A stretch of 64,000 nucleotides of DNA from Spirosoma foliorum. GTDB lineage: Bacteria > Bacteroidota > Bacteroidia > Cytophagales > Spirosomataceae. The number at the start of each line of letters is the position of its first letter. Within the stretch, counting starts at the first letter, position 1. The position numbers were made by a program, and so were the translations under genes. The stretch is from NCBI RefSeq assembly GCF_014117325.1, contig NZ_CP059732.1:2493001-2557000 (forward strand), written 5' to 3'. The notes below the pieces were generated by a model that had not been told where the DNA came from, searched no databases, and worked only from the letters and a program-made list of their open reading frames with translations. Below, one piece after another: positions 14,937 through 25,011 of the stretch.

Positions 14937-16148
14937 ATGGAAATACTGAAAAGCGATCGGCTTACGCATTTGAAATACGATATTCGGGGACCTATTTATG
15001 AGAAGTCTCTTGAACTCGAAAGTCAGGGTTTTAAAATTATCAGTCTGAATATTGGCAATCCTGCCACCTTTGGCTTCGATGCCCCCGACGAAATTGTCCA
15101 TGATATTATTCTGAATATCCGTAATGCGCAGGGGTACTCTGACTCTCGGGGTTTGTTTGCCGCCCGAAAAGCGGTTATGCACCACACACAGAATATTGGC
15201 CTTCCTGGTATTACTATCAACGATATTTACATCGGTAACGGGGTAAGTGAGTTGATCATGCTTTCTATGCAAGCGCTCCTGAATGAAGGCGACGAAGTAC
15301 TGGTGCCCTCTCCCGATTATCCGCTGTGGACAGCTTCGGTTGCTTTTTGTGGCGGCAAACCAGTCCATTACGTTTGTGACGAAGCTTCCGATTGGAATCC
15401 GGATCTGGCTGATTTAGAGCGTAAAATTACTCCCCGTACACGGGCCATCGTTGTCATCAACCCAAATAACCCAACGGGGGCAGTTTATGATAAAGAGGTA
15501 TTGCAAGGCATTGCCCGCATTGCCGAGCGTCATAAACTGATCGTCTTTTCCGACGAGATCTACGATAGGATTCTATACAACGGAGCCGTTCATTATCCAA
15601 TTTCTAAAATGATTAACGACACGCTCTGTATCACGATGGGCGGATTGTCGAAAAATTACCGGGCCGCTGGTTTTCGGGGTGGTTGGATGATTTTGAGCGG
15701 TGCGCGGAAACGAGCTAAATCCTACATCGAAGGCCTGACTTTACTGGCAAGTATGCGTCTTTGTGCCAACGTTCCAACACAGTATGCGATTCAAACAGCT
15801 TTAGGCGGCTATCAGAGCATCAATGATTTAGTGCTTCCTACGGGTCGTTTATACAAACAAATGATGCTGGCGTATGACCGCATGACGGCCATTCCGGGTA
15901 TTACCTGTGTGAAACCCAAAGGTTCATTGTATATTTTTCCGAAGATTGATTTGAGCCAGTTTAGATTGGAAGGCGATGACGATTTCGTACTAAATCTATT
16001 GACGGAGCAAAAAGTACTGGTTGTATCAGGAAATGGGTTTAACTATACCAAGAATGATCACTTCCGAATTGTCTGTCTGCCAACTGTCGATGAACTAAAT
16101 GTAGCAATGGATCGGATCGAATATTTCCTTGAAAGCCGACGAAAATAA
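14937..16148 (+). CDS. alaA: AlaA-type PLP-dependent alanine (glutamate-pyruvate) aminotransferase
   Basis: 403 aa from ATG 14937 (14 residues shorter than from ATG 14895, which the -7 box makes unlikely). Fold type I aminotransferase, class I/II: YDIRGPIYEKSLELESQG and ISLNIGNPATFGF at the N-terminus, GYSDSRGLFAARKAV, VVINPNNPTGAVYD, SDEIYDRILY, and the PLP lysine in LSKNYRAAGFRGGW. The YDIRGP and GLSKNYRAAGFRGGW motifs are those of E. coli AlaA (YfbQ) and relatives, which make alanine from pyruvate and glutamate. Cytoplasmic, single gene with its own terminator. Confidence 0.92.
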   Translation: MEILKSDRLTHLKYDIRGPIYEKSLELESQGFKIISLNIGNPATFGFDAPDEIVHDIILNIRNAQGYSDSRGLFAARKAVMHHTQNIGLPGITINDIYIGNGVSELIMLSMQALLNEGDEVLVPSPDYPLWTASVAFCGGKPVHYVCDEASDWNPDLADLERKITPRTRAIVVINPNNPTGAVYDKEVLQGIARIAERHKLIVFSDEIYDRILYNGAVHYPISKMINDTLCITMGGLSKNYRAAGFRGGWMILSGARKRAKSYIEGLTLLASMRLCANVPTQYAIQTALGGYQSINDLVLPTGRLYKQMMLAYDRMTAIPGITCVKPKGSLYIFPKIDLSQFRLEGDDDFVLNLLTEQKVLVVSGNGFNYTKNDHFRIVCLPTVDELNVAMDRIEYFLESRRK

Positions 16149-16176
16149 ACAAGGTTAATAAGAACGATATACGTAA

Positions 16177-16201
16177 AATGGCCCGAATTAGTCGGGCCAT
16201 T
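16177..16201 (+). terminator. Rho-independent terminator after the aminotransferase gene
   Basis: AATGGCCCGA (16177-16186), 5-base loop, TCGGGCCATT (16192-16201), followed by TCTGTTTTT. Begins 29 bases after the stop. Confidence 0.85.
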
Positions 16202-16332
16202 TCTGTTTTTACACAGCGTTGATACTAAGGTGTTTTGCCTACGGGTTAATCAATTTTTAACCCAATAAACGATTTCTAAAGTCTGGAAACGTTTTTACAA
16301 GATCGCTTGTTAATAGATTCTTTCTCAGTAAT

Positions 16333-16364
16333 AAATCTCGTTGGTAAGGCTATCAACGAGATTT
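16333..16364 (+). terminator. Second hairpin upstream of the LOG gene
   Basis: AAATCTCGTTG (16333-16343) pairs with CAACGAGATTT (16354-16364), followed by TTGATT. There is no gene between this hairpin and the terminator at 16177-16201, so it either terminates an unseen small RNA of up to about 150 bases or is a leader hairpin of the next gene. I see nothing that decides this. Confidence 0.45.
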
Positions 16365-16441
16365 TTGATTAGTTTGGATGGCTATTATATAACTTAACGA
16401 AGTGAGTACGATTCGCGCCCACTGCCTTTTTTAGTACATAC

Positions 16442-17242
16442 ATGGACGAAACAAAAGAAAATGTTCATCGCTCTGAAACGCAGAGCACCGAACGAATTGC
16501 ACACGATTTACCTAAGCGCGACGAGTTACTCCTTACACCCGACGAACAACGCATTAAAGAAGCTTTTCAGGACCACGATTGGAACGAGATCAAAACCGCA
16601 GATTCCTGGGTTATCTTCAAGGTGATGGCTGAATTTGTGGAGGGTTTTGATAAATTAGCCAAGATAGGTCCCTGTGTATCCATTTTCGGTTCAGCCCGTA
16701 CCAAGCCCGACAATCCATACTATAAAATGACCGAAGAAATTGCGGCCAAGTTAGTACGTCACGGCTATGGTGTTATTACGGGTGGTGGCCCTGGTATTAT
16801 GGAAGCTGGTAATAAAGGAGCTTTTGAACAGGGGGGCAAATCCGTTGGCCTAAACATCAAATTACCCTTTGAACAGCATAGTAATATTTACATCGACCCC
16901 GATAAGAGCATCAACTTCGACTTCTTTTTTGTGCGGAAGGTGATGTTTGTCAAATACGCACAGGGCTTTGTGGTTATGCCCGGAGGTATGGGTACGCTCG
17001 ATGAACTGTTTGAGGCCATGACGCTGATTCAGACCCGAAAAATTGCCCGTTTCCCAATCGTACTCGTTGGAAAGTCCTATTGGCAGGGCTTGATCGACTG
17101 GATCACAAATGTCATGCTGGAAGAACAGCATAACATCAATCCGGAAGACATGAAACTCATCAGTATTGTTGACACGCCCACAGAGGCTGTTAAAGTCATT
17201 GATGAGTTCTACAATAAATACTTGCTGAAGCCAAACTTCTGA
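16442..17242 (+). CDS. LOG-family phosphoribohydrolase (TIGR00730)
   Basis: 266 aa. Rossmann-like nucleotide 5'-monophosphate phosphoribohydrolase of the LOG family. Motifs: SIFGSARTKPDNPYY, GYGVITGGGPGIMEAGNKGA, and the catalytic PGGMGTLDELFEAMTLIQT (PGGxGTxxE). Known members hydrolyse nucleoside monophosphates, including cytokinin ribotides, to base and ribose-5-phosphate. The N-terminal 65 residues are charged and helical (an extension common in Bacteroidota members). Ends 8 bases before a perfect 30-bp palindrome. Confidence 0.9.
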   Translation: MDETKENVHRSETQSTERIAHDLPKRDELLLTPDEQRIKEAFQDHDWNEIKTADSWVIFKVMAEFVEGFDKLAKIGPCVSIFGSARTKPDNPYYKMTEEIAAKLVRHGYGVITGGGPGIMEAGNKGAFEQGGKSVGLNIKLPFEQHSNIYIDPDKSINFDFFFVRKVMFVKYAQGFVVMPGGMGTLDELFEAMTLIQTRKIARFPIVLVGKSYWQGLIDWITNVMLEEQHNINPEDMKLISIVDTPTEAVKVIDEFYNKYLLKPNF

Positions 17243-17250
17243 TAAACTGT

Positions 17251-17317
17251 ACGCGGCTGGAAAGCCGTGCATCTTATAAACAATAGCTTTATAAGATGCA
17301 CGGCTTTCCAGCCGCGT
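17251..17317. repeat. Perfect 30-bp palindrome between convergent genes
   Basis: Arms 17251-17280 and 17288-17317 are exact complements with a 7-base loop; core GCGGCTGGAAAGCCGTGCAT. Outer TGTAC/GTACA ends extend it imperfectly. Position between the LOG gene and the DUF2911 gene suggests a two-way terminator; the GGCTGGAAAGCC core resembles REP-type elements such as that at 6663-6734 in style but not in sequence. Confidence 0.85.
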
Positions 17318-17337
17318 TACTTGTACATTAAATGATC

Positions 17338-17913
17338 TTAAAACGAAACTGGAACTTCAACCAGTGTATTGTCCCAGGCAATCATCATTATAGATTCTTT
17401 GACGTTTTCTCCAGCCTTTTTGAACTGAATCGTCAGGTTTTCAACCGTTTCTTCTGGTTTCTTAACAGGAGCGGTCACGCGTAAAACATCCAGACTTTCC
17501 TTATAGCTATAGGCGCCCCACTGGTCTAAATCAGAGCTAAAAATAAGCGTCCACTCGGTTTCGTTGGGGATTGCATAAAACGAATACACACCCGCTTTGA
17601 TCTTTTTCCCCTGAATCGTGGCATCCGAGAAAAACTTGATTTCAGTTGCTTCGTTTGCACCAACCCGCCACACTTTACCGTAGGGAATCAGTTTACCAAA
17701 CACTTCTCTTCCATTTTTAGCCGGACGACTGTAGGTTACTCGGGCAAATACTTTGTCGCCTACTTTGGCGGGAGCAAACTTCCGGTCGTGGGCAAAATCG
17801 TCAGGATAGTAAGCCATATCCATCGGACTTTTGTCAAGACCTCTTAATTTTTGTGCTTGAGAAATTGAGGTAAAACCGATGAGCAGGCAGGCGAGTAAAC
17901 CAATAAATTTCAT
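17338..17913 (-). CDS. DUF2911 secreted protein
   Basis: 191 aa from the ATG at 17913 (a GTG 39 bases upstream is inside a repeat and is not used). Signal peptide MKFIGLLACLLIGFTSISQA, then the DUF2911 core: VFARVTYSRPAKNGREVFG, LIPYGKVWRVGANEATEIKF, IKAGVYSFYAIPNETEWTLI and the C-terminal WDNTLVEVPVSF. Widespread secreted family in Bacteroidota and Gemmatimonadota with no known activity. Confidence 0.88.
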   Translation of the reverse strand: MKFIGLLACLLIGFTSISQAQKLRGLDKSPMDMAYYPDDFAHDRKFAPAKVGDKVFARVTYSRPAKNGREVFGKLIPYGKVWRVGANEATEIKFFSDATIQGKKIKAGVYSFYAIPNETEWTLIFSSDLDQWGAYSYKESLDVLRVTAPVKKPEETVENLTIQFKKAGENVKESIMMIAWDNTLVEVPVSF

Positions 17914-17945
17914 GTTTGTGAAGGGGTATAATTGAAGTATAAATG

Positions 17946-18026
17946 TAACCACAGAGATACAGAGAACGCAGAGTTTTAATTCTATTATTGCAATTAAATT
18001 CTGTGTTCTCTGTGCCTCTGTGGTTA
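17946..18026. repeat. AACCACAGAG-type inverted repeat
   Basis: About 81 bases: TAACCACAGAG at the left and CTCTGTGGTTA at the right, with inner segments (ACAGAGAACGCAGAG versus CTGTGTTCTCTGTG) pairing imperfectly around an AT-rich loop. The same wording occurs in part at 4933-4974 and as a half copy near 61758-61780. Sits between the DUF2911 gene and the end of the dnaB paralogue. Confidence 0.7.
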
Positions 18027-18039
18027 AAAAGACTGTTAT

Positions 18040-19119
18040 TTAAAACGGAGTTTCCTGACTTGGATCGGCGTTACCGAAGTTCGACATGGTTTTGGCTTTG
18101 CTCTTAAATACACTGCCTGCTGATGGGGGAGCATCAAAGCTGCTCATGCCATTTACATCGGTTGCAAAACCCTGCGCCTGAATGGGTTCGAAATACGAAT
18201 CAAGGTCGCAGAACTTGGTGAACTTGCCAATAAACTTAAGTTGGACGGTATCTTGCGAGCCACTCCGGTTTTTAGCGATAATGACTTCACCAATGCCCAA
18301 TGTCGAATTACCGTTTTCATCGGCTGTAATATTGTAATATTCAGGACGATATAATATCATGGCAATATCTGCATGTTCTTCTATTGCTCCTGAACCTCGT
18401 AAATCGTGAAGTTGTGGCCTTTTGTCTCATACTCGAGTTTCAGCTGTTCGGTTTATTTGAGATAAAGCTATTATGGGTATTTTTAACTCAGAGGATAGTG
18501 CTTTTAGGCTTCTAATAAGCTTTGATAATTCTTCGTATTCACTAGTAGATTCTTCTAGGTTAGTAGATAGCATAAGTTGTATATTATCAATAGCTACTAA
18601 CTTAACATCATGTCGCTTTATCATTTGCAAGCATTTGACTCGCAAATCTTCAAATTTTAGGTTGTGATTATCGTCAATGAAAATTGGCGCTTCACTGAAT
18701 CGTTGGAATTGGAGAGATGATAGTTTTACCCATTCATGAGGAGCAAACGACCCTGACCGAAATTTTTCTAAATTAATTTCTGTTTCTGCTGCCATTAAAC
18801 GATTTAGTACTTGATTCCTTCCCATTTCTAACGAAAAGAGAGCTACGGGTGCTCCAAAGTCAACTGCGGCATTTCTAAGGATTGATAGAAGAAAAGATGA
18901 TTTACCAATTGATGGACGTGACGCCAATATAATTAGCTCCGACTTTTGCCATCCAGAAAAAATTCTATCTAAAGCTGTAAGTCCTGATGGAACACCGGTC
19001 AAGCCCAGTAAAGACTGTTTATTGTCTAACTCGTTTAACGCGCTATTTAGAGTATCCCCCAAATTTGGAATCGCAGAATCAACTTGAATTGGGTCGAAAT
19101 CATATGGTGCGTTATCCAT
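18040..19119 (-). pseudogene. DnaB-like helicase paralogue interrupted by an in-frame TGA, mosaic 3' end
   Basis: 360 codons from ATG 19119 (a TTG 36 bases upstream is possible) with one in-frame TGA at 18427-18429; the same frame continues to 18040. It lacks the DnaB N-terminal domain and starts at the linker/RecA-like ATPase core: GLTGVPSGLTALDRIFSGWQ, P-loop ASRPSIGKSSF without an intein, Walker B VAIDNIQLM, IIALSQINRTAETR, stop, then KRPQLHDLRGSGAIEEHAD. From codon ILYRPEYYNIT on, the last ~105 residues are close to dnaB (about 80 percent by eye), while the core is much more divergent and markedly AT-rich. Starts 47 bases after the dnaB stop. As written, the product would be a 230-aa truncated ATPase; more likely a decaying or recombining copy. 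Confidence 0.8.
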
Positions 19120-19165
19120 AATAAGGGTGGTTATTAAAGTTAAGCTACAAAACAAAAAAGATTAC

Positions 19166-21769
19166 TCAAAAAGGAGTCTCTTGACTTGGATCGGCGTTGC
19201 CGAAGTTCATATTGTTAGCCTTGCTCTTAATTGTACTACCTAACTGTGGTCCTTCAAAACTATTAAGACCATTTACATCAGGTAAAAATCCATGAGTCTG
19301 AACGGGTTCAAAATACGAGTCAAGATCACAGAACTTAGTGAACTTGCCGATAAACTTAAGTTGGACTGTATCGAGTGAGCCACTCCGGTTTTTGGCAATG
19401 ATTACCTCTCCGATACCGACTGTCGAGTTACCGTTCTCATCCTGTGTAATGTTGTAATATTCAGGACGATATAAGAAGCAAACCATATCGGCATCTTGCT
19501 CAATAGATCCCGATTCCCGAAGATCGGAGAGCTGCGGTTTCTTGTCGCCACCACGGGTTTCAACAGCCCGACTTAACTGCGACAGGGCAATAACCGGAAC
19601 GTTTAGCTCTTTAGCCAGGTTTTTGAGCGCTCGAGAAATCGACGCAATTTCTTGTTCACGGTTACCACCCATCCGCCCTGACGAGTCCCCCGACATTAGC
19701 TGAAGATAGTCGATTACGACCATTTGAATGTCGTGTTGCGCTTTCAGACGACGGCATTTGGCCCGAAGTTCCAAAATGGATAGGGCAGGGGTATCGTCAA
19801 TAAAAATAGGCGCTTCGGTCAGCCGCTGAATTTTGTGGTGCAACTGCGTCCACTCGTGTGGGGCCAGCGTTCCTTTCCGGATTTTCTCCGAATCAATTTC
19901 GGCTTCGGCCGAGATCAGACGATTGACCAACTGAACCGACGACATCTCCAATGAGAAAATCGCTACCGGTTTTCCATGATCGACAGCCGCATTTCGGAGA
20001 GCTGAAACGACGAAAGCCGTGTTATGCGTCACGGTCATATCTTCGAGCAGAAACAAACGATTTCCGTCGATAGAAAAACCGTAATAGTCATCTACCTTAT
20101 CGTATTCAACCTGAATACCTGTAACACGCCAGTCGGCCCGCGCTTTGAGCGCACGTGCCTTCTTTCGTTCAATACGAACAGGAATCGAATCCAGATTACC
20201 AAAAATACGGAGCCGATAAACTGTAGAGATATAACCTATCTTGGCAATTGTAGCCTGTTTTTCTTTCAATGAACACCGAAAACCGAGTGTATCGCAAAGG
20301 TATTTTAGCTGCTCAGCCAGTTCTTTATTTTTCTGGGTAATCTCGTAACAATTGAATTCTTCCTGATAATGGCCGTCACTGTCAACCAGTCCGGCCAGCA
20401 GTTTTAATCTGTTTTCAGTTGAATTGATCAGATAAGATCGTGGAATATGCTTGTTTTCAATGACCGATAATCCACGTAACTGTTCCTGAACATTAAACGC
20501 GACTTTCGCACCTCGTTGCCCCGTTGTAATAGCGTGATTAGGTGCTTTCCCAACTTGTTGATAGGTCGAAAACGTTAGATTCAGGTCATCTGCATAACCC
20601 TTTAAATAATCAACGACTTCGTTATCGACAGATGTAATTCGGGAGCTATAGGAATGGCCATCTCCTAGCCACAACCCCACAAAATAAGGATCAAGCGGAA
20701 CGGTCTGTTCTGGAAACTCTACGGCAACTTTATACCCTTTATAATTGGTCTTAAACTTATCCGATTTCGTCAGATAGTCTCGAACAGTTATGTTAAGCAC
20801 ATCTCCTTTGGTATGTCCACCTTCATTTCGACTTCGTTTCAGGGATAGAATGTGGCTTTCATTTACCCGATAATCGATGCCCTTATTCTGTTTTACCCAG
20901 TACATTCGCTCCCGACCACGGGCAATAGAGAGAACCCTACGAGGAGTAGAATCGTCGCCCATTAACAGATCGCCTTCACGTACATCTTCGACTTTTCGAA
21001 GTGACCCATCGAACATCACAACTTTAGTCCCTTTCCCGAGGCATTTGCCCATCGCTGGCCGAGCCGCCAGAATGATCAATTCGGTGGGCTGCCAGCCCGA
21101 TGTAACTCGGTCCAGACCCGTAAATCCAGACGGCACACCCGTTAAACCTTCCTGGTTTTTCTTGGTTTCAAGCTCATTCAGCGCCATCCTGACGATGGTG
21201 CTCATGTCAGCATAGTTCTTCTTGATGTTCGATTCCGAAATTTTGAAGAGCGATTGTTCCGTGCGGTCAAGGAGTTCGAACACGTCGGTTGTGTCCTCAT
21301 AGGCATCCCGAAGGATCGTTGACGACATGGCAATGAGTGCCCGTTTGAGCGCCTGTTCCGATACAATACGAGCGTGATACTCGATGTTTGCCGCCGAATT
21401 AACCCGGAAGGTCAGCTCGGCCACAAAGCCACCTCCACCAATAAGTTCGATCTCGCCAGTTTTACGTAGCTGATTCGTAACGGTCAGTAAGTCAATAGGA
21501 TCGGAGTTTCCGAACAGCGTTAGAATAGCCTGATAAATCCGCTGATGGGCTTCTTTATAGAACGTTTCAGGCTTGAGAATGTCGACAACAGATGACAGGG
21601 CATCTTTCTCAATCATTAACGCACCAAGTACGGCTTCTTCGAGGTCAAGGGCTTGTGGGGGGAGTTTACCAAGGCCTGTATCAAGCCAATGATTTCCGGC
21701 CTGTTGCCGACCTCCGGCGAACGCCGATGGTTTTCGAAGATGTTGATTGGGGCGGGCGTTATTCTCCAT
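19166..21769 (-). CDS. dnaB: Replicative DNA helicase DnaB with P-loop intein
   Basis: 867 aa precursor: 526 extein residues plus a 341-residue intein. DnaB N-terminal domain about 38-140 (PPQALDLEEAVLGALMIEKDAL, RIYQAILTLF), then the RecA-like helicase core: GLTGVPSGFTGLDRVTSGWQ, P-loop AARPAMGK / TAF split by the intein after Lys242, Walker B VVIDYLQLM, VIALSQLSRAVETR, DLRESGSIEQDAD, and a C-terminal tail ending NFGNADPSQETPF. DnaB is the hexameric 5'-3' fork helicase; splicing is required because the intein breaks the ATP-binding loop. Divergent from phoH with a 360-base gap. Encoded next to an intein-free paralogue. Confidence 0.96.
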   Translation of the reverse strand: MENNARPNQHLRKPSAFAGGRQQAGNHWLDTGLGKLPPQALDLEEAVLGALMIEKDALSSVVDILKPETFYKEAHQRIYQAILTLFGNSDPIDLLTVTNQLRKTGEIELIGGGGFVAELTFRVNSAANIEYHARIVSEQALKRALIAMSSTILRDAYEDTTDVFELLDRTEQSLFKISESNIKKNYADMSTIVRMALNELETKKNQEGLTGVPSGFTGLDRVTSGWQPTELIILAARPAMGKCLGKGTKVVMFDGSLRKVEDVREGDLLMGDDSTPRRVLSIARGRERMYWVKQNKGIDYRVNESHILSLKRSRNEGGHTKGDVLNITVRDYLTKSDKFKTNYKGYKVAVEFPEQTVPLDPYFVGLWLGDGHSYSSRITSVDNEVVDYLKGYADDLNLTFSTYQQVGKAPNHAITTGQRGAKVAFNVQEQLRGLSVIENKHIPRSYLINSTENRLKLLAGLVDSDGHYQEEFNCYEITQKNKELAEQLKYLCDTLGFRCSLKEKQATIAKIGYISTVYRLRIFGNLDSIPVRIERKKARALKARADWRVTGIQVEYDKVDDYYGFSIDGNRLFLLEDMTVTHNTAFVVSALRNAAVDHGKPVAIFSLEMSSVQLVNRLISAEAEIDSEKIRKGTLAPHEWTQLHHKIQRLTEAPIFIDDTPALSILELRAKCRRLKAQHDIQMVVIDYLQLMSGDSSGRMGGNREQEIASISRALKNLAKELNVPVIALSQLSRAVETRGGDKKPQLSDLRESGSIEQDADMVCFLYRPEYYNITQDENGNSTVGIGEVIIAKNRSGSLDTVQLKFIGKFTKFCDLDSYFEPVQTHGFLPDVNGLNSFEGPQLGSTIKSKANNMNFGNADPSQETPF
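20021..21043 (-). mobile_element. Intein with LAGLIDADG homing endonuclease in DnaB
   Basis: 341 aa in frame, Cys243 to Asn583 of the precursor. Splicing motifs: first residue Cys (CLGKGTKVVMFDGSLRKVED), block B with NESHILSL, block F YYGFSIDGNRLFLLEDMT and block G VTHN followed by +1 Thr. Two dodecapeptides of a LAGLIDADG endonuclease are visible: FVGLWLGDGHS and LLAGLVDSDGHY, both keeping the catalytic Asp, so the element could still home. It sits inside Walker A (GK/T), a different site from the Synechocystis DnaB intein, which lies at SG/SIEQD. Confidence 0.95.
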
Positions 21770-22128
21770 GTCTTACTGCAAGTTTACGCAATCCTCCTCG
21801 CAAAAGGCAACTTCTGCCCGTCTGACGTATACACATCAACCGGGCTAAATTGTTCGTAACATTCTGGTAATGTTGACGCTATCTCGCCAAAAAAAAATTC
21901 ATTTTTTTAAGCAACGGTGGAGGGCAGGATTTGCGTACTAGATACTGAAACTAAGCAGCCAACTGTATGTCAGCAAGATAAGTATTTATCCCCAATAAGC
22001 ACGGGGTTTACGCAAAAAAGGGCAATGAATAAGAAACTGACTTAAACGAATAATTTTTTAGTAAAACGCGTTGAAGAAGTAAAGAAATCGCTTACTTTTC
22101 GGATATCACACGTAAACCTATTCATCGT
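21770..22128. other. Intergenic region between divergent dnaB and phoH
   Basis: About 360 bases holding both promoters. AT-rich tracts (poly-A/T near 21890-21910) but no exact TAnnTTTG box for either gene; the nearest match for phoH is TACTTTTC at 22093-22100. No hairpin or reading frame seen. Confidence 0.5.
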
Positions 22129-23094
22129 TTGGTCGAAAAAGTCATTACCCTCGACAATGTATCGCTCATCGATTTTCTGGGCGTAGAGAACCACAACATC
22201 AAAGAAGTGGCAGCTGCGTTCCCAATGAGCAAAATTATCTCCCGCGGCAACGAAATCCGTATTAAGGGCACTACGCCCGAGATTAGCCGGATCAGCGACA
22301 TTCTGGAATCGTTGATCGAGCATTATCAGAAATACGGTAAAATTACCCAGGAAAATGTCCAGAATTATATTAGCCATAGTGGGCAACCCGTGAATGGTGG
22401 TTTACCCACTGCGCCTGTCCCTCCTGATGACGATGAAGTACTGGTGTACGGCAATCGGGGGGTGGTTGTTCGGGCTCGAACCGATAATCAAAAACGTCTC
22501 GTTGAAGCGGCCGAAAAGTCTGATCTGGTGTTTGCGATTGGGCCAGCCGGTACGGGTAAAACCTATACGGCTGTAGCGATTGCGGTGCGGGCGCTGAAAA
22601 ACAAAGAAGTCAAGAAAATTATTATTACGCGTCCGGCGGTTGAAGCAGGCGAAAATCTGGGCTTCCTTCCCGGTGATCTGAAGGAAAAAATTGATCCCTA
22701 TCTGCGCCCGATTTATGACGCCTTGGATGATATGATTCCGGCTGAGAAGCTGAAGTTTTATACGGAGAATCGGATTATTGAAATTGCGCCACTAGCCTAC
22801 ATGCGGGGACGAACATTAAATAACGCCTTTATTCTGCTCGACGAAGCCCAGAACACAACGCCGATGCAGATGAAGATGTTTCTGACCCGGATGGGACCAG
22901 CGTCGAAAGCGATTATTACCGGCGACCGGTCGCAGATTGATTTACCGAACCGGCAAAAGTCTGGATTGATTGAGTCGGTAGCTATTTTAAAAAACATCAA
23001 AGGGATTGCGTTCGTTGAACTAGACGGACGCGATGTGGTTCGCCACCGGCTCGTTCGTGAAATTATTACAGCGTATGATAAAGCTGGGCAATAA
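22129..23094 (+). CDS. phoH: PhoH-family ATPase
   Basis: 321 aa. The reading frame has no ATG or GTG near its 5' end; the family N-terminus (VEKVITLDNVSLIDFLGVEN) begins directly at TTG 22129, so TTG is the likely start. P-loop FAIGPAGTGKTYTAVA, IIITRPAVEAGENLGFLPGD and LLDEAQNTTPMQMKMFLTRMG are the PhoH/YbeZ hallmarks; the N-terminal part is the KH-like domain. PhoH proteins are cytoplasmic ATPases linked to RNA/ribosome metabolism, normally next to ybeY, which is not seen here. Overlaps the next gene by 20 bases. Confidence 0.93.
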   Translation: MVEKVITLDNVSLIDFLGVENHNIKEVAAAFPMSKIISRGNEIRIKGTTPEISRISDILESLIEHYQKYGKITQENVQNYISHSGQPVNGGLPTAPVPPDDDEVLVYGNRGVVVRARTDNQKRLVEAAEKSDLVFAIGPAGTGKTYTAVAIAVRALKNKEVKKIIITRPAVEAGENLGFLPGDLKEKIDPYLRPIYDALDDMIPAEKLKFYTENRIIEIAPLAYMRGRTLNNAFILLDEAQNTTPMQMKMFLTRMGPASKAIITGDRSQIDLPNRQKSGLIESVAILKNIKGIAFVELDGRDVVRHRLVREIITAYDKAGQ

Positions 23095-24433
23095 TAGCCT
23101 GATTAGAAACAAGCGGACCAACTGGCATTGGCTGGCTGGTTCGCTTGTTTGTTTACTGACATCGGTAGCAGGGGCGCAAACGCTCCAGGAGCCAATCTAT
23201 AAGCGGTGCGCCATAGTCGACCATGAACTCATTCTCCAGCAACGAGACCCTGATCGACTTCGCCAGTTGACGAATCTGAACAAGCAGGTTCAACAGGCGT
23301 TGGAAAACAAGAAGTCGTTACGGCAACAAGCTGATAATACGATCTATCGAATTCCGATTGTTGTTCATGTGGTGCATAGTAACGCATCCGGTGTAATTGG
23401 CGGCACGAACAATGGCAATATTTCTGATGCCCAGATTGCTTCTCAGATCCAGGTGTTAAACGAAGATTACCGACGTCAGGCAGGTACGAATGGCTATAAT
23501 ACAAGTGCTATTGGTGCCGATGCGGGCATTGAGTTTTTTTTGGCTACCACTGATCCGGATGGTCAACCAACTACAGGCATTACGCGACATTATTACGCAC
23601 AAAAATCATCATTTGATATCGAGACAGATGATGTATTGCTATCTCAGATTGCCTACTGGCCTAGTGATCGCTACTTAAATATTTGGGTAACCAACTTGAA
23701 TAGCAACTATTTAGGCTATACACAATTTCCGACAGCAGCCGACACGTTAAAAGGCTTGCCACCCTCAACGAACGATTTAACCGATGGGTCAATCATTGAT
23801 CATCGAACGTTTGGGCGTCAAACTGGTACAGTTACTCGGTCGTTATACCTGCTTGGTCGAACGGTTACGCACGAAATTGGGCACTGGCTTGGACTCATAC
23901 ACCCTTGGGGTGATGGGCTTGGTTGTAATGAGGATTATGTTGCCGATACCCCGTTAATGGCCGATGGGTCGAATGCGCAGCAATCCTGCAAACAGACGTA
24001 TTCGAATTGCGACGGTAAAGGTCAGGTTCGTGATTTGATGGAAGATTATATGAATTACTGGCCGGATGCCTGTATGAATATGTTTACGGCGGGTCAGGTT
24101 GCCCGAATGCGAGCGGTTCTTCAATTGAGTCCGCGACGGGTTAAATTGCTTAAATCGGTTTCATCGCCTTTACCCGAAACCGAAGCTCTCACCGTGACTG
24201 TTTACCCGAATCCAGCCACTGCTGATCCTACTGTTGATGTTCAGCTCAAAGGATTTCAGTCGTTCAATGTTTCTTTGTTCGATGCAACTGGTCGGCAGTT
24301 ACGCACTACCACATTTACCGATGCACCTAGTACCCGTACTACACTTTCGGTAACCGGATTAGCAACTGGTGTGTATATTGTACGCGTAAAAACAGACGGC
24401 GAAATGGTCAGCAAACGACTTCTGGTCCCCTAA
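23075..24433 (+). CDS. Secreted M43 (pappalysin-like) metalloprotease with T9SS sorting domain
   Basis: 452 aa from ATG 23075, which overlaps phoH. Sec signal in LAGSLVCLLTSVAGA after a basic N-terminus. M43 cytophagalysin-type zinc protease: IPIVVHVVH, QVLNEDYRRQ, the zinc motif HEIGHWLGLIH (266-276) and the downstream Met-turn region DYMNYWPDACMNMFTAGQ. The last ~75 residues (VTVYPNPATADPTVDV to VSKRLLVP) are a type A Por/T9SS C-terminal sorting domain, so the mature enzyme should be exported across the outer membrane and anchored or released. Coupling to phoH is probably by chance proximity. Confidence 0.93.
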   Translation: MIKLGNNSLIRNKRTNWHWLAGSLVCLLTSVAGAQTLQEPIYKRCAIVDHELILQQRDPDRLRQLTNLNKQVQQALENKKSLRQQADNTIYRIPIVVHVVHSNASGVIGGTNNGNISDAQIASQIQVLNEDYRRQAGTNGYNTSAIGADAGIEFFLATTDPDGQPTTGITRHYYAQKSSFDIETDDVLLSQIAYWPSDRYLNIWVTNLNSNYLGYTQFPTAADTLKGLPPSTNDLTDGSIIDHRTFGRQTGTVTRSLYLLGRTVTHEIGHWLGLIHPWGDGLGCNEDYVADTPLMADGSNAQQSCKQTYSNCDGKGQVRDLMEDYMNYWPDACMNMFTAGQVARMRAVLQLSPRRVKLLKSVSSPLPETEALTVTVYPNPATADPTVDVQLKGFQSFNVSLFDATGRQLRTTTFTDAPSTRTTLSVTGLATGVYIVRVKTDGEMVSKRLLVP

Positions 24434-24558
24434 GTCTGGTTTAAGATATTCTGTTTAGAGCGTGTCTGTAGGATTTAAAATTGACTGATGTAGATACGAA
24501 TCGCGTATTAACCAGTCATAAAACCTGTAGTATACGACCATTTCTCGCTATAAACTTT

Positions 24559-25011
24559 ATGATTAACGTTTTACCTATTTCAACTCCGGCTGATCTTGAC
24601 ATAGCTTTTGCTATTCGTCGAACGGTATTTGTGGAGGAGCAGCATGTGTCGGCAGAGGAGGAGTATGATGAATTTGAAGAAGTGAGCACTCATTTCCTGG
24701 CTTATTCAGACGGTACTCCCTGCGGTACGTCCCGCTGGCGACGAACGTCGAATGGTATTAAGCTAGAGCGGTTTGCCGTTTTGCCTGCCTTTCGTGGGAA
24801 AGGAGTTGGTAAGGCTCTTGTTCAGGCTGTTTTGAACGATGTATTTAATCAGCAGCCAGAACCCATTGAGCGTATTTATCTTCACGCACAGATAACGGCC
24901 ATGCCCCTGTATGCAAGCTTTGGGTTTGTAGCGGTTGGCCCCATGTTTGAGGAAGCGGGTATCCAGCACTATAAAATGGTATTACCCGGCGCTGCTTACT
25001 CGAAAGAATGA
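24559..25011 (+). CDS. GNAT family N-acetyltransferase
   Basis: 150 aa from ATG 24559 (the longer TTG start adds an unrelated 26 residues). GNAT fold: AIRRTVFVEEQHVSAEEEYDEFE at the substrate side, acetyl-CoA loop RFAVLPAFRGKGVGKALVQA (motif A, R/Q-x-x-G-x-G/A), and a C-terminal YASFGFVAVGPMFEEAGIQHY typical of the YjcF/ElaA-like branch. Substrate unknown. Its TGA overlaps the comEC ATG (ATGA), so the two are translationally coupled. Confidence 0.88.
   Translation: MINVLPISTPADLDIAFAIRRTVFVEEQHVSAEEEYDEFEEVSTHFLAYSDGTPCGTSRWRRTSNGIKLERFAVLPAFRGKGVGKALVQAVLNDVFNQQPEPIERIYLHAQITAMPLYASFGFVAVGPMFEEAGIQHYKMVLPGAAYSKE

Follow-up and report, generated by a model that had tools for sequence, protein, structure and literature searches.

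A DnaB paralogue without the N-terminal domain behind an intein-bearing dnaB in Spirosoma: a recombination mosaic that probably carries its neighbour's native 3′ end

The 64,000-nucleotide stretch of the Spirosoma foliorum genome analysed here (the window; genome G000, 8.85 Mb in one contig) carries, directly behind a dnaB gene interrupted by an intein, a second DnaB-like gene devoid of the DnaB N-terminal domain (NTD). To judge from its sequence, this paralogue is a rare NTD-less RecA-type motor core, found in tandem 3′ of dnaB in a few Spirosomaceae, and single-part trees indicate that recombination has joined it to the 3′ end of a dnaB, the tails following the host lineages. Moreover, it is probably the paralogue that carries the native dnaB end, while dnaB bears the replacement, which reverses the direction assumed in a first interpretation of the window made from its letters (hereafter the sequence-only reading).

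That reading had reported a divergent, AT-rich paralogue right after dnaB, with an uninterrupted P-loop, no NTD, one in-frame TGA and a dnaB-like tail, and all of these features are confirmed by the open reading frames (ORFs), the alignment to dnaB and the Pfam matches (Table 1). Over its 359 codons, the paralogue shows a single in-frame TGA and no frameshift. The P-loop reads SIGKSSF, and the Walker A, SLEM, Walker B region, ALSQ and YRPEYY/AKNR motifs occur in all three paralogues that we recovered, the last two lying 3′ of the TGA in the window copy. The DnaB_C domain (PF03796), for which the cut-off is 27 bits, is matched by the two pieces of the window copy, at 192.1 and 75.2 bits, and by the intact relative P0001 (313.2 bits, positions 1–254 of the 255 of the profile), which also matches solved DnaB chains in sequence comparison. 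The window dnaB matches both the N-terminal domain and DnaB_C; Pfam finds no match to the N-terminal domain (PF00772) in the window piece, P0001 or P0002, so that these do not qualify as full replicative DnaB proteins. The paralogues share 17 changes at columns that are constant across the compared DnaB set.

Along the paralogue, codon-aligned DNA identity to dnaB, computed per 15 codons, amounts to 31–71% in the core (about 57% for the core as a whole), then to 76–91% in the first 60 codons of the tail (YRPEYY to the end) and to 62–88% in the remaining tail. The change, which the sequence-only reading had placed near 18355, falls at about 18343–18354 (near 18352) in the base-level alignment, and the identical run at the junction is 23 nt in full. 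GC content follows the same partition (divergent part 37%, tail 44%, dnaB exteins 49%). Uniform identity along the whole gene is excluded, also because the core and tail trees conflict (see below).

Among the 36 genomes of the genus, G000 included, 34 have a DnaB match (G026 and G028 have none), and the tandem paralogue is present in two of these 34, G000 and Spirosoma fluviale (G007), which are not sister species; this is not a second gene conserved across the genus. The locus of S. fluviale comprises a dnaB without intein, then an intact orthologue of 351 aa without any stop (equal to database protein P0001), then the lysine-decarboxylase/LOG-type gene. Since the same mosaic, minus the TGA, is found independently in S. 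fluviale, it reflects more than chance or one bad assembly, and the intact two-gene order in that species rules out an assembly artefact as the sole cause. A third full-length relative, P0002 (353 aa, metagenomic, on a 2649-bp contig), came from a protein search in which the 8000 best candidates were scored and the best 120 listed. Beyond the genus, the family search (222 genomes) and the order search (390 genomes, G007 not among them) concern the matches listed, where a lower-scoring tandem copy could be missed. No separate second copy adjoins dnaB in any of the 34 family genomes with a complete match list at E 1e-20 (32 of these with at least two matches), and, among the matches listed for the order, only G000 beats the leading dnaB frames (2.2e-193, the next being 6.3e-173 for a 530-aa frame). 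In G206, an open frame of 354 aa was read as a dnaB truncated at the contig edge, while the short DnaB-core database proteins that we filtered mostly start inside the linker and look cut at contig ends, none being accepted as a further paralogue (by eye). Finally, all 1018 phage records and all 1190 plasmid records with a match remain below 60% identity, viral contigs scanned with exact words of P0002 yielded no relative, and neither did a scan of named genomes. In these comparisons we see no sign of a phage origin, and the paralogue does not read as a dnaB allele.

Phylogenetic trees were computed separately for core and tail, leaving out G032, whose assembly shows a disrupted dnaB frame. In the core tree, the three paralogues form one clade (100/100), nearest to the g10 (Fibrella-type) DnaB proteins, which contradicts separate recent duplications from the dnaB of each host. 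Without the long G000 row, the clade takes no clear position relative to Spirosoma and g10, and the approximately unbiased (AU) test (p 0.48) does not separate a core derived from Spirosoma dnaB proper from one derived from a common Spirosoma/g10 ancestor. In contrast, the tail trees reject a single paralogue clade (AU p 0.008). In the protein tail tree, the G000 paralogue tail groups with the dnaB of G017, G003, G022 and G000 (99/99) and the P0002 tail with a g10 dnaB (98/88); the S. fluviale tail is unplaced there, and the DNA tree joins it to the sister species G009 and G027 (95/74), its own dnaB standing elsewhere. These affinities can be set beside the dnaB + phoH tree, in which G000 goes with G003 (97/87), then G022 (100/98), and G007 with G009 and G027 (100/100). 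As the G000 core branch is long (0.78, for 0.12 in the S. fluviale core) and its tail branch short (0.096), the junction between them is probably younger than the onset of drift in the core. Of the recombination or gene conversion between a foreign DnaB-like gene and the 3′ end of dnaB that had been proposed for this locus, the mosaic thus stands with the conflicting trees, but the foreign, phage- or plasmid-like source finds no support, given the low identities above and a core close to Spirosoma/Fibrella-type DnaB.

The assignment of the native end to the paralogue draws on identity, downstream DNA and base composition. The G000 paralogue tail is 85.4% identical to the dnaB of G003 and 79.2% to the dnaB next to it, the former value matching the level of the G000–G003 dnaB comparison outside the tail (86–87%). 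Past about 54 tail codons, the identity of dnaB falls from 90% to 67% between G007 and G009, and from 81% to 72% between G000 and G003; when the paralogues are compared instead, the distal tail is at 79% and 83%, respectively. Likewise, the DNA 3′ of the paralogue stop resembles the post-dnaB DNA of sister species (G022 and G032 for G000; G009 and others for S. fluviale). The AT-rich tract, for its part, extends beyond the start of the paralogue into about the last 50 codons of dnaB: GC content per 100 bp is 44–48% in 18001–18300, 29–41% over 18301–19300 and 42–55% in the four steps beyond 19300, and the segment 18352–19309 as a whole has 37.3%, with 0.56% of equally long windows at or below this value. 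For the third-position GC (GC3) of the distal dnaB tail, the two carriers are the two lowest of 33 genomes (0.298 and 0.339, the next being 0.449), and they also show the two largest GC3 drops relative to the rest of dnaB, whichever of 8 boundaries is used; a given pair of genomes would take the two bottom places in 1 of 528 draws, the test being post hoc. In the distal-tail tree (39 rows), the long rows are the dnaB of G024, G007 and G000. Altogether, identity, GC3 and downstream DNA fit, in both carrier genomes, a feature of the e14 type, i.e., a replacement end on the gene and the displaced native end on the far side, while the AU tests are compatible with conversion too.

The account that we hold to be likelier than not is that the AT-rich segment (about 18352–19309) was inserted into the 3′ end of dnaB by homologous recombination, which would have fused the native end to the paralogue. 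The paralogue would arrive on a segment that comprises, besides its core, a spacer and a replacement 3′ end for dnaB, one crossover taking place in the C-terminal part of dnaB and the other between the dnaB-like tail of the incoming paralogue and the resident dnaB tail. In this way, dnaB would retain a full reading frame with a new end, whereas its native end would become the paralogue tail, and the same homology would permit precise loss. In G000, the core would afterwards have drifted and acquired the TGA. A single event would hence explain both the odd end of dnaB and the native-like tail of the paralogue.

Several observations weigh against such an insertion. Just two genomes carry the pair, and the comparisons of GC and of the distal tails are post hoc. 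In the DNA tail trees, AU tests do not reject a grouping of each paralogue tail with the dnaB of the same genome (p 0.10–0.41), and the union of the G000 paralogue with G003 is favoured in the proximal tail only (94/76), with AU p 0.30 for the whole tail and 0.25 for the distal part. The residual of the distal dnaB tail is moderate in G000 (-0.049, for -0.118 in G007), and one of the 31 other genomes, G024, reaches -0.083 without a known copy. In the proximal tail, the S. fluviale paralogue is 81% identical to G009, below the species level (dnaB 90%), and the G000 dnaB is itself low, at 81% to G003. Finally, the distal dnaB tails of G000 and G007 are 65% identical to each other, and the donor of the dnaB ends was not found, the closest of the compared tails reaching 74.5% identity for G000 and 69.4% for G007.

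The main competitor, to which we grant a clearly smaller but substantial share of belief, is an old tandem duplicate from a Spirosoma/Fibrella-type ancestor, the tail of which would have been repeatedly overwritten by gene conversion from the adjoining dnaB, with loss in most species. The locus shared by two non-sister species would then be inherited, the unrejected pairing of each tail with its own dnaB would be expected, and so would the run of 32 identical nt that the paralogue and the dnaB of S. fluviale share immediately ahead of the point where the tail divides. However, this history requires at least six losses after the G000–G007 ancestor (13 if the host of P0002 belongs to g10, some forks being weak), it does not predict a G000 paralogue tail nearer to the sister species than to its own dnaB, and it leaves unexplained the AT-rich, diverged dnaB ends of both carriers. 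Much less probable is the remnant of a larger phage or satellite element that would have inserted into the 3′ end of dnaB with its own integrase before shrinking to a stub. The displaced native 3′ end and the restored host frame recall e14 in icd, as described in two papers (PMC6379469, PMC11148124), but no integrase is found among the six neighbouring or related proteins scanned, nor recognised in the ORF list for 15000–25000, the core resembles dnaB and runs into the tail without a shift of register, and no phage relative exceeds the 60% level. The least credible of all is the proposal of the sequence-only reading, i.e., a foreign DnaB-like gene or an incoming intein-less allele that became attached to the 3′ end of dnaB, possibly as a homing target of the intein. 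The AT-rich core and the mosaic junction agree with it, while a core that belongs to a family-specific paralogue clade, and that is only about 57% identical to dnaB, is no allele, the phage and plasmid matches are all too distant, and S. fluviale has the gene pair without any intein.

Whichever the origin, the state of the window copy calls for a separate evaluation. The TGA and the long core branch are signs of a pseudogene, but the conserved tail is not (all as seen in the assembly). In the G000 paralogue, 27 of 121 otherwise constant columns are altered, the TGA codon counted, for 5 of 99 in a like test of S. fluviale. In view of the core drift and the TGA, the full-length protein is probably no longer made in G000. 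It is rather unlikely, in our opinion, that the TGA is a sequencing error or a very recent change in a paralogue that works, or did until lately, in G000, an option that fits either origin. One stop without frameshift in 359 codons, an intact orthologue in S. fluviale and the conservation of the tail (proportion of nonsynonymous differences, pN, to G003 of 0.012 proximally and 0.069 distally) would suit a working gene, but the long core branch and the altered constant columns would not, and the tail conservation is equally expected from a young junction, just as it fits recent decay. For the cores, pN and its synonymous counterpart pS are used instead of the rate ratio dN/dS, since synonymous sites are saturated. 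As for the intact form, the kept motor motifs suggest an ATPase, which, at a guess, might form rings alone or with DnaB.

A bolder generalisation can be put forward, though we regard it as doubtful. The 3′ end of the Spirosomaceae dnaB might act as the landing site of a bare, roughly 1-kb cassette (replacement dnaB end and NTD-less DnaB), which would move between species by ordinary homologous recombination, rebuild dnaB, take the native end as its own tail and be able to exit precisely. It would then be a recombinase-less mobile unit built from the essential helicase of its host.

Regarding the intein, the suggestion that an intein-free homologue could serve as a homing target finds no support here: 29 of 48 nt around the insertion site are common to the paralogue and its own dnaB (manual count), and none of the three paralogues carries an intein. 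Within the genus, a P-loop intein interrupts 9 of the 34 dnaB genes (eight plus the broken one of G032). We see no link between intein and tandem copy, because eight of the nine intein-bearing dnaB genes lack the copy and S. fluviale has the copy without intein. The dnaB frame of G032 (L044) is disrupted at two places, one in the intein and one in the C-terminal part, with assembly errors as the likely cause. The dnaB of G011 (L039) has two inteins, of 347 aa in the P-loop and of 430 aa at the SIEQDAD (H4) site, these being the two sites described for Mycobacterium smegmatis DnaB (PMC6195587).

Table 1. Features of the dnaB locus, in positions of the window
Feature	Position	Strand	Remarks
NTD-less DnaB paralogue, frame broken by one TGA	18040..19119	-	359 codons + stop; ATG at 19119, stop 18040-18042; ORFs 18427-19155 and 18040-18360, alignment to dnaB
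In-frame TGA of paralogue	18427..18429	-	Gly at this position in dnaB and both other paralogues
Paralogue tail, YRPEYY to end	18040..18351	-	resembles native dnaB 3′ end of the lineage; identities, tail trees
DNA 3′ of paralogue stop	17940..18039	.	alignable to post-dnaB DNA of G022 and G032; by eye not to G003 or G017
dnaB with intein	19166..21769	-	867 codons
Intein, 341 aa, in dnaB P-loop	20021..21043	-	Hint and LAGLIDADG matches (Pfam)
dnaB proximal tail, YRPEYY to DSYF	19310..19471	-	
dnaB distal tail, putative replacement end	19166..19309	-	diverged; lowest third-position GC of 33 genomes
Putative AT-rich insertion, from replacement dnaB end through spacer to paralogue core	18352..19309	-	edges approximate; GC, 100-bp profile, identity breaks
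DUF2911 gene, next after paralogue	17338..17952	-	
Lysine-decarboxylase/LOG-type gene, conserved locus neighbour beyond DUF2911 gene	16442..17242	+	
PhoH gene, conserved locus neighbour at the far side of dnaB	22129..23094	+	

Other observations concern the surroundings and the DnaB proteins at large. Between the DUF2911 gene and the paralogue, an imperfect inverted repeat (accacagag...ctctgtggt) is visible by eye at 17949–18030, and a like repeat lies 3′ of dnaB in G022 and G032 (also by eye); a long terminator-like inverted repeat surrounds the end of the LOG-type gene at 17251–17318 (by eye). G000 has a third DnaB, intact (495 aa, N- and C-terminal domains), at G000:C1:3847236-3848015 (L003:904-2391), the neighbours of which are phage-like by look. 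It ends in DDIPF, while a single-stranded DNA-binding protein (SSB) of G000 ends in DDDLPF, and the DnaB tip resembles the C-terminal tip of SSB. PF is the C-terminal end of all 115 full-length DnaB homologues listed (P0003–P0120, over 500 aa), the tip of the window dnaB being at 19169–19186. Away from dnaB, a DUF4062 domain is fused to a DnaB_C core in two genomes of the genus, at L040:2855-4462 (G006) and L042:2981-4567 (G023); DUF4062 together with DnaB was not found in the literature searched, and a link to our paralogues was rejected, as these fusions stand apart from them in the core tree.

The arrangement has no apparent description in the literature searched on DnaB with intein, conversion or paralogue, on second DnaB copies and on Spirosoma DnaB (titles, abstract starts and PMC3290774, from one library). 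If our interpretation holds, the locus illustrates a way of adding a helicase gene next to an essential one that leaves the latter unbroken. It also shows that a shared tail can mislead, as the native end may sit on the truncated copy and the imported end on the working gene. Besides, the intact S. fluviale gene, as a rare NTD-less DnaB found in nature, bears on whether such cores act alone or join DnaB rings.

The closest parallel is e14 in icd of Escherichia coli K-12, where, according to PMC6379469 and PMC11148124, a 3′-end insertion supplies a replacement end and the displaced native end (163–165 bp) lies on its far side. Our locus would share the replacement end on the gene and the displaced end beyond the insertion. 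However, e14 is a prophage that uses site-specific recombination, whereas in G000 and S. fluviale nothing but the paralogue separates the two dnaB tails. This stretch of about 1 kb has a single dnaB-like gene, no integrase or other element gene is seen in it, and the putative displaced end forms, in frame, the end of that gene. Like M. smegmatis DnaB (PMC6195587), the window dnaB has its intein in the P-loop, at the kind of position termed site b in that species, even though the window intein has endonuclease-domain matches and DnaBi1 has none, and the paralogue is intein-free. Compared with replicative DnaB (PF03796), the intact orthologue has the whole DnaB_C domain and the motor motifs, while it differs by the missing N-terminal domain and the 17 shared changes. 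Finally, orphan or displaced toxin ends are a feature of Rhs and contact-dependent inhibition (CDI) systems, in which recombination in a conserved part swaps the 3′ end and the old end stays nearby; there, however, the ends are those of polymorphic toxins, whereas here the gene is an essential helicase and its old end would sit on a second, helicase-like gene.

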